Below the pieces are notes generated by a model. It made no database searches, had not been told where the DNA came from, and was given only the letters and a program-made list of their open reading frames with translations. Position numbers and translations under genes: made by a program. This document shows positions 47,188-59,398 of a stretch of DNA of 64,000 nt, one piece after another. The stretch comes from Haloferax larsenii JCM 13917 (lineage in GTDB: Archaea > Halobacteriota > Halobacteria > Halobacteriales > Haloferacaceae), in contig NZ_AOLI01000021.1 in the NCBI RefSeq assembly GCF_000336955.1, positions 38,051 through 102,050 on the forward strand, written 5' to 3'. The stretch's first letter is position 1. The number at the start of each line of letters is the position of its first letter.

Positions 47188-49737
47188 TCAGCGGTACTCG
47201 GACCCGACCACGTCGCGAATTCGTTCGGCGGTGACGGCACCGACGCCTGGTACTTCTTTCAGGTCGTCCTCGTTGGCCGTCATCACCGCTTCGACGCTAC
47301 CCAGTTCTTCGAGTAGGTTTCGCGCCGTCACAGGGCCGATATCGGCGATTGCCGAGACGACGTACTCCTGCTGTTCGTCGAGTGTTTTCGCGCTCTTGCC
47401 GCCGTGGACGCTCACGGTACGCTCTCTGTCGGTCTGCTCGCGCGAGGCGATAGTTGCGAGCATCTCGGTGGTGTCGTCTTCGTCTTCGGTGAAGAGGACG
47501 CTCACGCCGAAGTCGACGGCGACAGAGGAGAGCGCGCCGCGAATCGCGCCAGGGTGGATGTTACGCTCTTCGTAGAGGCCGCGACCCTCGACGATGAGAA
47601 GCGGTCGGGCGTAGTGCCGCGTCAGGTCCGCAATCTGGTCGAACAGCGAGCGGTCGCCCTCGGTGAGCGTATCGAGGAAGTCTGCCACGCTCTTGCGTTC
47701 GACCGCGACGCGGTCCGAGAGGACGTAGTCGCCGACTGCGAGCGTTTCGAGTCGCGTCGTCAGGTCGTCGCGCTTCGAGAGCGTTCGTGCGATGTTGGAG
47801 TCGAGTTCGCGCTGGTCGACGACGATTTCCACACCGTCGTCGGTCCCGGCTTTGGCGATGGTTCCAGTGTCGTCATCGCTGCCGTCACGTTCACTTTCGG
47901 TATCAGACTCGGTTGCACTCGAACTGTCGCCGTCACGCTCCTCGTCGGGTTCGGCGCGGGCCAACTCCTCGTCTGTCGGTCCGAAGTCGGCGAGGCCAGA
48001 TTGGCCGTCTGTCGCCTCGGCGGCCGCAACTGCCTCGCGTCCGCCGTCGTCGGTCGAACCCGCACCAGCGACCCCCTCGTTTCCGGTGGACGTTCCTGAA
48101 CGTTCGGGAGCGTCTTCGTCATGCTCGGCGGCCTCGCCACCGTTTCCGGCGAACGCCGAGAGGTCGCGTTGCGAGTGGTCGAGTTCGGCTTCGATGTCCG
48201 AGGCCGCACCCTTGAGCGAGCGCAGTTCCTTTTCCATCGTCTTCTCGCGGCGGCGCGAAATCCAGAAGTACGCCTCGTCGCGGGTGTCTTCGGCGAGTAA
48301 GACGACGACGCGACCGTCGGCCTGTCGTCCGGTCCGGCCCTTCCGCTGGATGGACCGAATCGCCGTCGGAACGGGTTCGAAGAAGAGCACGAGGTCGACC
48401 TCGGGCACGTCCAGTCCCTCCTCGGCGACAGACGTCGAGACGAGGACTTCGAACTCGCCGCTTCGGAACTTGTCGAGGGCCTCCTGTTGTTCCTTCTGCG
48501 ACATCCCGTCAGACCCGTCGCGGTCGCCCTGTCCGACGAATCGCCGGACTGAGAAGCTCTGCGAGAGGAATTCGGTGAGTGCCTCCGCCGTGTCGCGCGA
48601 CTCGGTGAAGACGATGACGCGCTCGCCGTCGCGGATGCCGAGCGTCTCCGCGAGGAGGATTCGGGTCTCCCGGAACTTCGGGTGGAGTCCGTCGAACGAC
48701 TCGGCTTTCCGCATCGCCTCGCGCACCTTCGGTTCGGCGACGAGGCGTTGGCTCGCCTTCGACGCGCCGGACGAACGGGCGGCGTTGCGCTGGCGTTCGA
48801 AGTACCGCCGAACCGACTCGACGGACTGCGTCTCGACCAGTTCGACCGCCCGGCGTAGTTTCATCACCTCCGCGTGCGTTGACATTCCTTTGTAGCCCTC
48901 CGACTTGTCGGCGTTCATCAGGCGCTGAAGCTCCGCGCGCATCCGGTTGAGCTTCTTCTGTGAGACGTCGGGTTTCGTCGATTTGGTGACGCCCAACTGC
49001 TTGAGTTTCTCCAGTCGGTCGGTGATGACCTCGTTGAGCGCGTCGCGTATCTCCAGAATCTCGTCGGGGAGTTGGATTCGGTTCCACTCGACGTCCGTGT
49101 CGTGAGTGTAGTCAGAGACGTCGGCGTCCTCCTCGGTCATCACCTCCACGTGGACGATTCCGAGGTTCTCACAGACTTCGAGGATAGCTTCCTCGTCGCC
49201 ACCGGGAGACGCGCTCATCCCGGTGACGAGTGGGTTTTCGGCGTCGGCGTGGTAGCGCTCGGCGATGTAGACGTACGCGTAGTCGCCGCTGGCGCGGTGG
49301 CACTCGTCGAACGTGAGGTGCGTCACGTCGCGCAGCGAGACGCGGTTGCCGATGAGGTCGTTTTCGACGACCTGCGGCGTCGCGATGACGATTTGGGCGT
49401 CGTCCCAGAGCTCGGCGCGGTCGTCGGGGCGAACGTCGCCGGTGAAGACGACGATGTCCTCGTCGGGGATGTCGAGTGCTTCCCGATAGAAGTCCGCGTG
49501 CTGCTGGACGAGCGGTTTCGTCGGCGCGAGAAACAGCGACTTCCCACCGACCTCGTGTAACCGCTGGGCGGTGACAAGAAGGCTGACCGTGGTCTTTCCG
49601 AGACCAGTGGGAAGACAGACGAGCGTGTGGTCGTCGCGCGCTGCACCCGCGAGTCGTATCTGGTAGAGCCGCCGCTCGATGAACGACGGGACGAGCAACG
49701 GGTGGTCGACGTACGCGACATCCTCGGAGGACGGCAT
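47188..49737 (-). CDS. hef: Hef helicase-nuclease
   Basis: An archaeal FANCM/XPF homologue that processes stalled forks and flaps; 849 residues. The N-terminal SF2 helicase has Walker A PTGLGKTT (near 43-50), the DECH box TFDECHRASGDYAYV (near 148) and motif VI QRKGRTGRQADGR. A Ser/Asp-rich linker spans about 540-640. The C-terminal XPF nuclease has VAVERKSVADFLDTL (the ERKxxxD catalytic motif, near 678). Tandem helix-hairpin-helix follows (DIGPVTARNLLEELG, VPGVGAVTAERI). Hef is known to be important in Haloferax when Hjc is absent. It lies close to the origin and reads away from it. Confidence 0.96.
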   Translation of the reverse strand: MPSSEDVAYVDHPLLVPSFIERRLYQIRLAGAARDDHTLVCLPTGLGKTTVSLLVTAQRLHEVGGKSLFLAPTKPLVQQHADFYREALDIPDEDIVVFTGDVRPDDRAELWDDAQIVIATPQVVENDLIGNRVSLRDVTHLTFDECHRASGDYAYVYIAERYHADAENPLVTGMSASPGGDEEAILEVCENLGIVHVEVMTEEDADVSDYTHDTDVEWNRIQLPDEILEIRDALNEVITDRLEKLKQLGVTKSTKPDVSQKKLNRMRAELQRLMNADKSEGYKGMSTHAEVMKLRRAVELVETQSVESVRRYFERQRNAARSSGASKASQRLVAEPKVREAMRKAESFDGLHPKFRETRILLAETLGIRDGERVIVFTESRDTAEALTEFLSQSFSVRRFVGQGDRDGSDGMSQKEQQEALDKFRSGEFEVLVSTSVAEEGLDVPEVDLVLFFEPVPTAIRSIQRKGRTGRQADGRVVVLLAEDTRDEAYFWISRRREKTMEKELRSLKGAASDIEAELDHSQRDLSAFAGNGGEAAEHDEDAPERSGTSTGNEGVAGAGSTDDGGREAVAAAEATDGQSGLADFGPTDEELARAEPDEERDGDSSSATESDTESERDGSDDDTGTIAKAGTDDGVEIVVDQRELDSNIARTLSKRDDLTTRLETLAVGDYVLSDRVAVERKSVADFLDTLTEGDRSLFDQIADLTRHYARPLLIVEGRGLYEERNIHPGAIRGALSSVAVDFGVSVLFTEDEDDTTEMLATIASREQTDRERTVSVHGGKSAKTLDEQQEYVVSAIADIGPVTARNLLEELGSVEAVMTANEDDLKEVPGVGAVTAERIRDVVGSEYR

Positions 49738-49945: not shown

Positions 49946-50121
49946 AGCGCTTCCCCTAGGAGGATATACTCTCAACTATCGTATATAATGATTGTGCCGG
50001 TCGGGTGTCGAGTTGTGACCGCCGACTCGAAGACGAGGCGAGGCAGGAATCCTACCGAAACGGGATACTACGCAGTTCGAGGCGAAACGAAGGGGTAGTG
50101 CGGGGTTTGACGTCTGCGTTC

Positions 50122-53091: not shown

Positions 53092-53122
53092 AACACCCCC
53101 ACCCCTTCGTTTCAGGTGGAAC
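53092..53122 (-). repeat. Origin recognition box, full, inward left
   Basis: Minus strand: GTTCCACCTGAAACGAAGGG, then GTGGGGGTGTT. Core dyad half, GAAAC, AAGGGGT and the G-string are all present, making this the best-matched box in the origin. It is the expected binding site of Orc1/Cdc6. Confidence 0.88.
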
Positions 53123-53272: not shown

Positions 53273-53299
53273 GACCCCCTCCCCACTGTTTCTCGCCTC
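53273..53299 (-). repeat. Degenerate ORB, minus strand
   Basis: Minus strand GGAGGCGAGAAACAGTGGGG followed by AGGGGGT. It keeps GAAAC and two G-tracts at the ORB spacing. It forms an inverted pair with the box starting at 53297. Confidence 0.6.
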
Positions 53300-53323
53300 C
53301 ACCCGAAACAAAGGGGTGTGGGG
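53297..53323 (+). repeat. Origin recognition box, full, inward right
   Basis: CTCCACCCGAAACAAAGGGG followed by TGTGGGG: complete core, AAAGGGGT and G-string. It lies on the opposite strand to the 53092-53122 box, on the other side of the AT-rich stretch. Confidence 0.88.
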
Positions 53324-53448: not shown

Positions 53449-53472
53449 CTCCACACGAAATGAGGGGGTTGT
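53449..53472 (+). repeat. ORB-like box
   Basis: CTCCACACGAAATGAGGGGG followed by TTGT: both halves are recognisable with a few deviations, same orientation as the 53297 box. Confidence 0.65.
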
Positions 53473-53985: not shown

Positions 53986-54008
53986 TTCCACCCGAAACAG
54001 AGGGGTAC
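53986..54008 (+). repeat. ORB overlapping orc1 transcription start
   Basis: TTCCACCCGAAACAGAGGGG then TAC, a full box ending 5-8 nt before the orc1 ATG. CTTTAAAC at about 53961-53968 is the likely TATA box, which places the transcription start inside this ORB. Orc1 bound here would compete with initiation, suggesting autorepression. Confidence 0.8.
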
Positions 54009-54013
54009 ACACG

Positions 54014-55603
54014 ATGGACGACGACACACAACGAGGCGACAACCGTCGAGAGGGCACTGCAAGCGACGGGGATGCGGAGTCGACAGAACTCTCGGCTGAA
54101 GACATCGACATTCAGGCGAGTATCGGCCCCGACGCCGATGTTCCCGAGGACACTGACCTCGACCAGCACAAAGACCCCGACGTCGGACTCGACAAGGTCG
54201 TACTGAACGACGACGAGGAGTCGAAGGGACTGTTCGACGACTTACTCGCTGGCGAGCCAATCTTCGAGAACAAGGAGGTTCTTCGCCCGTCGTACACGCC
54301 GCACGAACTCCCGCATCGGACCGACCAAATCAACCAGATGGCGACGATTCTCGTCTCGGCACTCCGCGGGGAGACGCCGTCGAACATCCTCATCTACGGG
54401 AAGACCGGGACCGGAAAGACCGCGAGCGCGAAGTTCGTGAGTCAAGAACTCGAATCGACGTCCCAGAAGTACGACGTTCCGTGTGAAGTCGAGTATATCA
54501 ACTGCGAAGTGACCGACACGCAGTATCGCGTGCTCGCGCAGCTCGCGAACAAGTTCATCGAGAAGAACATCGAACGCATCGAAGCCGAACTCGACCGACT
54601 CGACGAGATGCGAACCCGGGCGACCGAAGACCCCAACGCCCTCGACGACACGCCCTACAACTCTATCGCGGAGATAGACGAGCGCGCGGACGAACTCTCC
54701 GAGGACGCCGACGAGATGGAAACGGTCCCGATGACGGGGTGGCCGACCGACCGCGTCTATACGACCTTTTTCGACGCTGTCGACTACAAAGAACGCGTCG
54801 TCGTCATCATGCTGGACGAAATCGACAAACTCGTCGAGAAATCTGGCGACGACACGCTCTACAACCTCTCGCGGATGAACTCCGAGCTCGACAACTCTCG
54901 TATCTCTATCATGGGTATCTCGAACGACCTGAAGTTCACCGACTTCCTCGACCCTCGGGTCAAGTCGAGTCTCGGCGAGGAGGAAATCGTCTTCCCGCCG
55001 TACGACGCGAACCAACTCCGCGATATCCTTCAGCACCGCGCCGACGTGGCCTTCAAAGGCGGCGCACTGACTGACGACGTGATTCCGCTCTGTGCAGCGT
55101 TCGCCGCGCAGGAACACGGCGACGCCCGCCGCGCACTCGACTTACTCCGCACGGCCGGCGAACTCGCCGAGCGCGGACAGGCCGATACGGTCGAAGAAGC
55201 GCACGTGCGACAGGCGCAGGACAAAATCGAACTCGACCGCGTCGTCGAAGTCGTTCGAACCCTGCCGACGCAGTCGAAAATCGTCCTCTTCGCCATCATC
55301 CTGCTGGAGAAAAACGGCGTCCGAAACATCAACACCGGTGAGGTGTTCAACATCTACAAGCGCCTCTGCGAGGAAATCGACGCCGATATCCTCACTCAAC
55401 GGCGCGTCACCGACCTCATCTCGGAACTCGACATGCTCGGCATCGTCAACGCCGTCGTCGTCTCGAAGGGTCGCTACGGCCGGACGAAGGAAATCAGCCT
55501 CTCGGTCCCCATCGACGAGACCGAGGCCGTCCTGCTCACGGACTCTCGACTCGGCGATATCGAGAGTGCCCAACCGTTCGTGCAAGCCCGGTTCGACAAC
55601 TGA
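54014..55603 (+). CDS. orc1: Orc1/Cdc6 replication initiator
   Basis: An origin-binding AAA+ ATPase, 529 residues, longer than typical because of an acidic N-terminal extension of about 80 residues. Walker A GKTGTGKT is near 130-137, Walker B VVIMLDEIDKL near 262-272, and sensor 1 in SIMGISNDLKF near 296. Sensor 2 is in GDARRALDLLRTAGELAE near 362. The C-terminal winged-helix domain (about 420-525) recognises ORBs. A further acidic insert of about 45 residues lies between the Walker motifs. An ORB overlies its promoter. It reads away from the origin. Confidence 0.97.
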   Translation: MDDDTQRGDNRREGTASDGDAESTELSAEDIDIQASIGPDADVPEDTDLDQHKDPDVGLDKVVLNDDEESKGLFDDLLAGEPIFENKEVLRPSYTPHELPHRTDQINQMATILVSALRGETPSNILIYGKTGTGKTASAKFVSQELESTSQKYDVPCEVEYINCEVTDTQYRVLAQLANKFIEKNIERIEAELDRLDEMRTRATEDPNALDDTPYNSIAEIDERADELSEDADEMETVPMTGWPTDRVYTTFFDAVDYKERVVVIMLDEIDKLVEKSGDDTLYNLSRMNSELDNSRISIMGISNDLKFTDFLDPRVKSSLGEEEIVFPPYDANQLRDILQHRADVAFKGGALTDDVIPLCAAFAAQEHGDARRALDLLRTAGELAERGQADTVEEAHVRQAQDKIELDRVVEVVRTLPTQSKIVLFAIILLEKNGVRNINTGEVFNIYKRLCEEIDADILTQRRVTDLISELDMLGIVNAVVVSKGRYGRTKEISLSVPIDETEAVLLTDSRLGDIESAQPFVQARFDN

Positions 55604-56488: not shown

Positions 56489-58102
56489 GTGCCTTTGGAG
56501 ACGCCGGCGCGCATCGTCCGGGCACTGGTGAGTCGCGGCTACAACGCCGAACGCGAGGCCGTGACACTCATCGCAGGTACAGACGACCCGGGAGTCACGC
56601 TCGCCCAGGTCGTCGAATCGACACCGGACGACGCGCTCCGAATCACCGCTGACCACGTCCGCGAGGTGCTCGCGTCTGCACCCGCGACTGGACCATCTTC
56701 GTCTGCACCCGCGACTGACTCACCTTCGCCTTCGTCTGCACCAACTGGTCCCCCTGGGTCCGAATCCGAGAGCGGCGCAGCCGGCTCCGACCCCCCTGTT
56801 TCCGCTGCAACATCGGGAGACAACGAGGAACCTGTTGGAAAATCGACTCCACCTGAAGCGAAGGGGTCGGGGAGCGGGCGGAACCAAGATACGTCGCTTC
56901 GGTCGCTGGAAATCGCCAACGACATGACCGGGCAGTCGACCGGGACCGGCGAGTACGACGACTTCGTGAAGGTGTTCCGCGACCGCTACGAGAAACTCTC
57001 GAAGATGCTTCGCGGTCGGGTCAACCACCGGCCCGCGAAAGCCATCTCGAACATGTCCGGCGGGCAGGACGCCGAACTCATCGGCCTCGTCGACGACGTT
57101 CGCTCGACGAAGAGCGGCCACTGGATTGTCGACCTCGAAGACACGACGGGGACGTTTCCCTGTCTCGTGATGAAGGACAAGGACATCGCCAGCTACGTCG
57201 ACGAACTCCTCCTCGACGAGTGTATCGCGGTGTCGGGAACGCTCTCGGGCGACGCGGGCATCCTGTTTGTCGACGACATGTACTTCCCCGACGTCCCGCG
57301 AAACCACCGAACCAACACCGCCGACCGCCACGTGCAGGCCGCGCTCATCTCTGACGTCCACGTCGGGAGTCAGGAGTTCATGGCCGACTCGTGGCACCGT
57401 TTTGCCGACTGGCTCCACACCGAGGAAGCCGAGAACATCGAGTACCTGCTTATCGCTGGCGACATGGTCGAAGGCGTCGGTGTCTACCCGAACCAAGACG
57501 AGGAACTCGACGTCATCGACATCTACGACCAGTACGAAGCGTTCTCGGAGTACCTCAAGGAAGTGCCCGGCGACCTCGACATCGTGATGATTCCGGGGAA
57601 CCACGACGCGGTTCGACTCGCCGAACCCCAACCCGGATTCGACGACGAACTTCGGGATATCATGTCGGCTCACGACCCCCAGATTACGAGCAACCCTTCG
57701 ATGGTCACGCTCGAAGGCGTCAACATCCTCATGTACCACGGCGTCTCGCTGGACGAGGTCATCGCCGAACTCCCGTCGGACAAGGCGAGTTACGACGAAC
57801 CGCACAAGGCGATGTACCACCTCCTGAAGAAACGCCACGTCGCCCCGCAGTTCGGTGGCCACACGCGACTTGCACCCGAAGAACTCGATTACCTCGTCAT
57901 GGAGCAGGTGCCCGATATCTTCCACACCGGCCACGTCCACAAACTCGGCTGGGGTAAGTACCACAACGTCCTCGCGGTCAACTCCGGGTGTTGGCAGGCC
58001 CAGACCGACTTCCAGAAGTCCGTCAACATCGACCCCGACGCAGGCTACGCCCCTATCGTCGACCTCGACACGCTGAACATGACGGTGCGGAAGTTCTCCT
58101 GA
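56489..58102 (+). CDS. polD1: DNA polymerase D small subunit (DP1)
   Basis: The small subunit of archaeal replicative PolD, carrying the 3'-5' exonuclease; 537 residues. An N-terminal helical domain MPLETPARIVRALVSRGYNA (GTG start at 56489) is followed by a Ser/Pro/Thr linker (about 60-130). An OB fold comes next (about 200-280). The calcineurin-like phosphodiesterase core has SDVHVGSQEF, AGDMVEGVGVYP, MIPGNHDAVR and HTGHVHKLGWG, giving the metal-binding Asp, His and Asn residues. A 26-bp ORB-like sequence is embedded in the linker-coding part. It lies near the origin, as in other haloarchaea. Confidence 0.95.
   Translation: MPLETPARIVRALVSRGYNAEREAVTLIAGTDDPGVTLAQVVESTPDDALRITADHVREVLASAPATGPSSSAPATDSPSPSSAPTGPPGSESESGAAGSDPPVSAATSGDNEEPVGKSTPPEAKGSGSGRNQDTSLRSLEIANDMTGQSTGTGEYDDFVKVFRDRYEKLSKMLRGRVNHRPAKAISNMSGGQDAELIGLVDDVRSTKSGHWIVDLEDTTGTFPCLVMKDKDIASYVDELLLDECIAVSGTLSGDAGILFVDDMYFPDVPRNHRTNTADRHVQAALISDVHVGSQEFMADSWHRFADWLHTEEAENIEYLLIAGDMVEGVGVYPNQDEELDVIDIYDQYEAFSEYLKEVPGDLDIVMIPGNHDAVRLAEPQPGFDDELRDIMSAHDPQITSNPSMVTLEGVNILMYHGVSLDEVIAELPSDKASYDEPHKAMYHLLKKRHVAPQFGGHTRLAPEELDYLVMEQVPDIFHTGHVHKLGWGKYHNVLAVNSGCWQAQTDFQKSVNIDPDAGYAPIVDLDTLNMTVRKFS
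56847..56872 (+). repeat. ORB-like sequence inside polD1 coding region
   Basis: CTCCACCTGAAGCGAAGGGG followed by TCGGGG. It differs from the main left box of the origin mainly by one A-to-G change in GAAAC and a shorter G-string. It falls in the region encoding the disordered linker (Ser-Thr-Pro-Pro-Glu-Ala-Lys-Gly), where codons are free to accommodate a binding site. Confidence 0.6.
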
Positions 58103-59375: not shown

Positions 59376-59398
59376 AACCCCTTCGCTTCCACTCGAAC
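59376..59398 (-). repeat. ORB-like motif between convergent genes
   Basis: Minus strand GTTCGAGTGGAAGCGAAGGG then GTT. It resembles the other ORB-like motifs and lies in the 83-bp gap between the OYE and ZIP gene ends. It lacks a G-string. Confidence 0.5.

Follow-up and report, generated by a model that had tools for sequence, protein, structure and literature searches.

This locus raises the question of why the gene of a replicative DNA polymerase should contain, among its codons, a sequence resembling an origin box. The window, the whole 64,000-nucleotide stretch of Haloferax larsenii JCM 13917 analyzed here, carries the replication origin oriC1, the orc1 gene for the Orc1/Cdc6 initiator (54014..55603, plus strand) and, downstream of orc1, the DP1 gene (polD1) for the small subunit of DNA polymerase D (56489..58102, plus strand; Pfam domains DNA_pol_E_B and Metallophos). 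At oriC1 itself there are two ORBs with a G-string, the left one at 53096..53120 on the minus strand (TCCACCTGAAACGAAGGGGTGGGGG) and the right one at 53298..53322 on the plus strand (TCCACCCGAAACAAAGGGGTGTGGG), and a weaker ORB core on the orc1 side (53450..53469, plus strand, TCCACACGAAATGAGGGGGT) that has a conserved offset in Haloferax. The Orc1 protein is the presumed binder.

Two inverted arms in the DP1 gene

The 26-bp stretch reported as origin-box-like in the preliminary description of this DNA, 56847-56872 on the plus strand (CTCCACCTGAAGCGAAGGGGTCGGGG), is confirmed: aligned with the oriC1 ORB on the minus strand at 53096-53121 (TTCCACCTGAAACGAAGGGGTGGGGG), it has 23 of 26 bases identical and three different, and as a 25-bp inverted repeat the DP1 site and the oriC1 ORB are 92% complementary. 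A pattern for the DP1 site and the two oriC1 ORBs has three matches in the window and none in 100 shuffles, and its exact matches in the whole 3.70-Mb genome are those three sites only; since this pattern was derived from the sites themselves, the weight of the argument rests on independent tests.

The stretch is real, but it is only one half of the element, whose inverted partner had been missed. The right arm (56848..56867, plus strand) has the ORB core TCCACCTGAAGCGAAGGGGT, one mismatch away from TCCANNNGAAACNNNGGGGT, is read in the codons act CCA cct GAA gcg aag GGG Tcg, and finds its closest match in the left oriC1 ORB. The left arm (56790..56809, minus strand, TGCAGCGGAAACAGGGGGGT), also with one mismatch to the core, came to light in a scan of 80 related loci, where another core, inverted, kept the same distance from the first. 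The arms are separated by a gap of 38 bp, and their core centres are 58 bp apart (this step is counted on the 20-bp cores TCCANNNGAAACNNNGGGGT; 21-mers or another reference base give 57). The TCCA ends of both arms point inward, like those of the oriC1 pair.

Both arms are carried by the codons of residues 66-130 of DP1, a linker predicted to be disordered (pLDDT <50, in a structure prediction based on a 24-sequence alignment with a modest overall pLDDT of 66.6), in agreement with the location proposed earlier; the distance, earlier put at about 3.5 kb from the origin core, was measured as 3.6 kb from the oriC1 midpoint. Among the pairs, the distance from the DP1 start ranges from 253 to 553 nt. 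In a protein alignment built without the motif, both arms fall in the same columns and form the main conserved parts of the linker, where they encode the peptides DPSVSTG and TPVETEGS.

Distribution of the pair in Halobacteria

A genome search with the bare pair and its fixed 38-nt gap, blind to DP1, found the exact pair in 151 of 292 genomes of Halobacteria, representing 53 of 77 genera, nearly always at a single place per genome; the reversed control pattern had no match in any of the 292. In all 30 loci retrieved from this search the pair lies within DP1. Outside the class, no pair was found in a phylum-wide genome sample. Of 26 genomes picked from the non-matching ones, most have either one arm only or a pair whose step is 55, 70 or 76, or 58 with weaker arms. 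When the left arm was searched for freely in the first locus set, 56 of the 61 loci having it showed the standard step, and the remaining five were off by -3, +12 or +15. At the level of sequence, these searches show that the pair is class-wide in Halobacteria and that the 58-bp step is its preferred spacing.

Departures from this arrangement were seen in several groups of loci: (i) the right arm stands alone in 19 loci, mostly from Halorubrum, where the left arm was lost, (ii) in one Haloferax clade (L010, L012, L014 and L015) the right arm is decayed and the left arm kept, and (iii) in Halobellus the spacing is altered, and two of three species lost the right arm and kept the left. Two genomes, G179 and G197, have a second match to the paired pattern inside orc1 in addition to the DP1 copy. 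Two identical pair sequences occur on different contigs of G133 (C9:1962-2039 and C11:101181-101258) and near both ends of one contig of G273 (C1:14676-14753 and 3950967-3951044); these doubled elements are probably due to redundant or overlapping assembly.

Selection on DNA

The preliminary description had proposed synonymous-site conservation as a check, with freely varying synonymous positions among close species counting against the site. Across the class the outcome of this check is positive, both by resampling and by wobble bases; free variation applies in part to the Haloferax clade above, in its right arm, and not to the left arm kept there. The linkers were recoded synonymously 2000 times, drawing on the codon usage of each gene outside the arms, and at 63 of 81 loci no recoding equalled the real pair. 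The codon preceding CCA has T as its third base in 80/80 loci (7.4 expected), whether it encodes S, T, V, A, G, D or P; the CCA codon itself is found in 79/80 loci (7.0 expected), and the GTT-type and nnT codons of the left arm in 57/57 each (4.5 and 3.6 expected), all these counts being biased upward by the use of a motif search to find the arms. The fixed wobble bases are ones rarely used by haloarchaea. Since the loci are phylogenetically non-independent, the genus-level figures are the trustworthy ones, and the wobble-base result is unchanged with one locus per genus. The gap between the arms has a mean GC content of 65% and an identity of 34% between genera, versus 80-82% for the arms. 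Taken together, these data indicate that the pair is almost certainly a DNA-level element, selected as DNA and not as peptide.

Other accounts of the conservation fare poorly. A chance resemblance in GC-rich coding DNA would fit the right-arm decay within part of Haloferax, but the empty control search in 292 genomes and the synonymous null make its probability negligible. Selection for a conserved peptide motif or for an mRNA hairpin is extremely improbable. The two encoded peptides do seem conserved in the linker; however, the arms are inverted, so that one DNA motif encodes two unrelated peptides, and these together with the rare wobble bases, fixed despite varying amino acids, rule out the peptide motif. 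The inverted arms could also pair in the DP1 mRNA, and over all loci their variable positions match more often than under permutation (p 0.01), an excess that relatedness may explain: covariation is absent at one locus per genus (p 0.21), leaving an RNA stem unsupported, and Halorubrum has the right arm alone and two Halobellus species the left alone. A search of the region from oriC1 to DP1 against Rfam gave no matches. Homogenisation of the element with the oriC1 ORB of the same genome was considered and is not supported; variable triplets are shared in slight excess over all loci (p 0.017), and the excess vanishes with one locus per genus (p 0.23).

Relation to the oriC1 boxes and the putative binding protein

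Comparison of the logo of the DP1 arms with that of 140 oriC1 ORBs revealed that all 14 fixed core positions are common to both. The two logos differ at core position 5, where G is preferred in the DP1 arms and C at oriC1, and at positions 21-25, which are G-rich at oriC1 (the GGGGG string) and not in the DP1 arms. Haloarchaeal ORBs have been described with a G-string at the box end (PMC3528665). The DP1 arms thus have the core of their cognate origin without its G-string; we suggest that they may work like an ORB core, and we do not class them as canonical ORBs. The G-string that the preliminary description had included in its match is found, in part, only in H. larsenii and its closest relatives and is missing from the class-wide consensus of the arms.

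The 14 shared core positions make Orc1 the likely ligand, and we consider that Orc1 very probably binds the DP1 arms, possibly with low affinity given the missing G-string. Our literature search found no Orc1 ChIP-seq study in Haloferax. A different DNA-binding protein with a near-identical site could use the element instead; the missing G-string and the G at position 5 suggest a specificity not identical to that at oriC1. This alternative appears improbable in view of the identity of all fixed core positions with those of the oriC1 ORBs and of the location of almost all core matches in the searched genomes near oriC1.

ORB cores around oriC1

The DP1 pair is accompanied by further cores. In this 3.7-Mb genome, 13 of the 15 core matches with at most two mismatches lie in a 34-kb region around oriC1, and among the matches listed for the other Haloferax genomes nearly all are also near oriC1, clustering within about 30 kb. 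The only core-like matches off the oriC1 contig of this genome, G000:C17:106476-106495 (minus strand) and G000:C13:14643-14662 (plus strand), are possibly due to chance.

One satellite core (TCCACCGGAAACGAGGGGGT; 48071..48090, minus strand) is located inside the Hef ORF (47188-49737, minus strand), which lies further upstream than orc1 and encodes DEAD helicase and ERCC4 nuclease domains; it has a conserved oriC1 offset in 7/7 Haloferax genomes and the same coding-strand reading as the DP1 right arm. Two more satellites are found about 3.1 kb from oriC1 (TCGAGGCGAAACGAAGGGGT; 50077..50096, plus strand, one mismatch) and about 6.2 kb from it (TCGAGTGGAAGCGAAGGGGT; 59377..59396, minus strand, two mismatches), the latter recurring in Haloferax. 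Another core directly precedes the orc1 start codon (53987..54006, plus strand), where it is a candidate site of autoregulation; a core upstream of orc1 is present in most of 73 haloarchaeal loci.

In seven Haloferax genomes cores recur at conserved offsets from oriC1: in Hef (about -4.6 to -5.1 kb), at +0.25 kb, ahead of orc1 (about +0.8 to +1.1 kb), as the DP1 pair, and at +10 to +12.6, +13.6 to +16 and +27 to +28.8 kb. The satellites at 12-28 kb from oriC1 are at positions 1263 (+), 4797 (-), 8198 (-) and 17715 (+) of locus L119, which correspond to G000:C21:103313, 106847, 110248 and 119765, with similar offsets in other Haloferax. Four genomes of other genera have fewer satellites, closer to oriC1.

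Inside the orc1 ORF, a core on the coding strand was found in 11 of 73 loci, all from Natrialbales genera or Natrialbaceae MAGs (a grouping made from genus names). These cores (L048, L052, L058, L066, L069, L076, L077, L080, L084, L085 and L086) lie about 500-860 nt into the aligned gene, where the Orc1 alignments break, and most Natrialbales have one.

Possible roles of the element

As the best reading, which we hold tentatively and at slightly less than an even chance, the DP1 linker codons would contain a pair of Orc1-binding sites that serves as an origin-linked initiator sink. Orc1 monomers would bind the two arms with the relative orientation that they have at oriC1, and binding would probably be cooperative since the spacing is kept and the gap sequence is not. 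Together with the cores clustered near oriC1 and the one preceding orc1, the pair would constitute an origin-linked Orc1 reservoir. As the pair would usually be copied very soon after oriC1 fires, we hypothesize that its early duplication takes Orc1 from oriC1 and thus curbs re-initiation, an effect also proposed for datA of Escherichia coli and oriC2D of Haloarcula hispanica. The sink is favoured since it accounts for cores in coding and non-coding DNA, on both strands and mostly near oriC1; as expected for initiator titration, the DP1 pair and the satellites are boxes separate from the origin. Nevertheless, two sites are few unless the other satellites count, and the pair is incomplete or altered in part of Haloferax, in Halorubrum and in Halobellus. 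Sequestration as the main role of the pair is put forward as a hypothesis with a chance somewhat short of even.

The genomic position of DP1 bears on this choice. In nearly all loci oriC1, orc1 and DP1 are neighbours. The pair can, however, stay intact where DP1 is far from oriC1, at 130 kb in Halorarius, 74 kb in G241 and 13 kb in Haladaptatus, and hence adjacency to oriC1 is not strictly needed; in Halobellus DP1 is about 30-38 kb from oriC1, assuming that the numbered contigs are the named ones. Retention at a distance fits a sink and a DP1-linked role alike, and weakens models based on proximity.

The main and serious rival of the sink is control of DP1 transcription: Orc1 bound within the ORF, for example as a roadblock that RNA polymerase meets about 250-550 nt after the start codon, would tie the supply of polymerase D to free initiator. 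Where rearrangement has moved DP1, the element has moved with it and is intact at 74 and 130 kb from oriC1, which this role explains equally well as the sink does; all 30 retrieved matches of the genome-wide search are in DP1, and the core upstream of orc1 is consistent with Orc1 as a regulator. On the other hand, the pair stands at widely different distances from the DP1 start, and the coding cores in Hef and orc1 near oriC1 point to a role of the origin region rather than of DP1 specifically. We regard such control as rather unlikely to be the main function, though it deserves consideration.

Alternatively, the pair could belong to a nucleoprotein architecture of the origin region that would promote initiation instead of limiting it, through looping between Orc1 bound at oriC1 and at the satellites or through local enrichment of Orc1. 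The clustering of Haloferax cores around oriC1 at conserved offsets, the arm orientation and the constrained spacing over an unconstrained gap are in line with this model, but looping is less obvious for an element kept 74-130 kb from oriC1, and we consider the model unlikely. The role of an auxiliary or back-up origin, raised in the preliminary description, is very unlikely in spite of the inverted cores oriented as at oriC1. The oriC1 ORBs are about 200-600 bp apart, while the 38 bp between the DP1 arms leave no room for an AT-rich unwinding element, and a gap that is GC-rich and so little conserved between genera contains none. In origins associated with orc/cdc6 genes, inverted ORBs stand on either side of an AT-rich unwinding element in the intergenic region beside the gene, whereas this pair lies inside an ORF, 3.6 kb from oriC1, and is devoid of such an element.

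Extending the sink to the other coding cores, we propose as a possibility, short of probable, a class-wide undescribed module: initiator-binding cores would be embedded in linker codons of the replication genes near oriC1, namely DP1 throughout the class, orc1 in Natrialbales and Hef in Haloferax, and would make up a dispersed store of Orc1. This store would set how often initiation occurs or would couple the expression of polymerase D to free initiator. If so, coding sequence doubles as replication-control DNA. To our knowledge, little is known about the mechanism preventing re-firing of archaeal origins. The DP1 pair is a concrete and ancient cis element, in most cases present once per genome and located in a replication gene that is essential; it could be destroyed by synonymous changes alone with the protein unaltered, and an origin-marking signal kept in the coding sequence of a replicative polymerase suggests hidden replication control.

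Comparison with known systems

ORBs in polD1, or in any coding sequence, are unreported in the open-access papers searched, which are an incomplete set. One published ORB survey covered only the intergenic regions adjoining orc/cdc6 genes, and another was limited to inverted ORBs in intergenic DNA that have a G-string; coding ORB cores would therefore go unnoticed. The haloarchaeal ORBs at oriC1 share with the DP1 pair the core TTCCANNNGAAACRRAGGGGT, the inverted arrangement and the inward-pointing TCCA ends, whereas the DP1 pair differs from them in its location in coding sequence, its 38-bp gap, and the lack of a conserved G-string and of an unwinding element.

Two titration systems provide further parallels. 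The ORB-rich oriC2D region of Haloarcula hispanica, an intergenic stretch of 722 bp that belongs to one origin and contains 11 ORBs, has been proposed to titrate Cdc6E (PMC3936714). Like the DP1 pair, it comprises boxes outside the origin proper that are linked to an origin-cdc6 locus, with a proposed sequestration of the initiator; unlike oriC2D, the DP1 pair is a two-arm coding element with cores of the oriC1 type and a class-wide distribution. In Escherichia coli, titration by datA and DnaA boxes is proposed to rely on sites off the origin that lower free initiator after replication (as discussed in PMC3936714). The proposed titration logic is the same, the sink being hypothetical in the DP1 case, while the protein and sequence of the bacterial system are unrelated and datA is not embedded in the codons of a polymerase.
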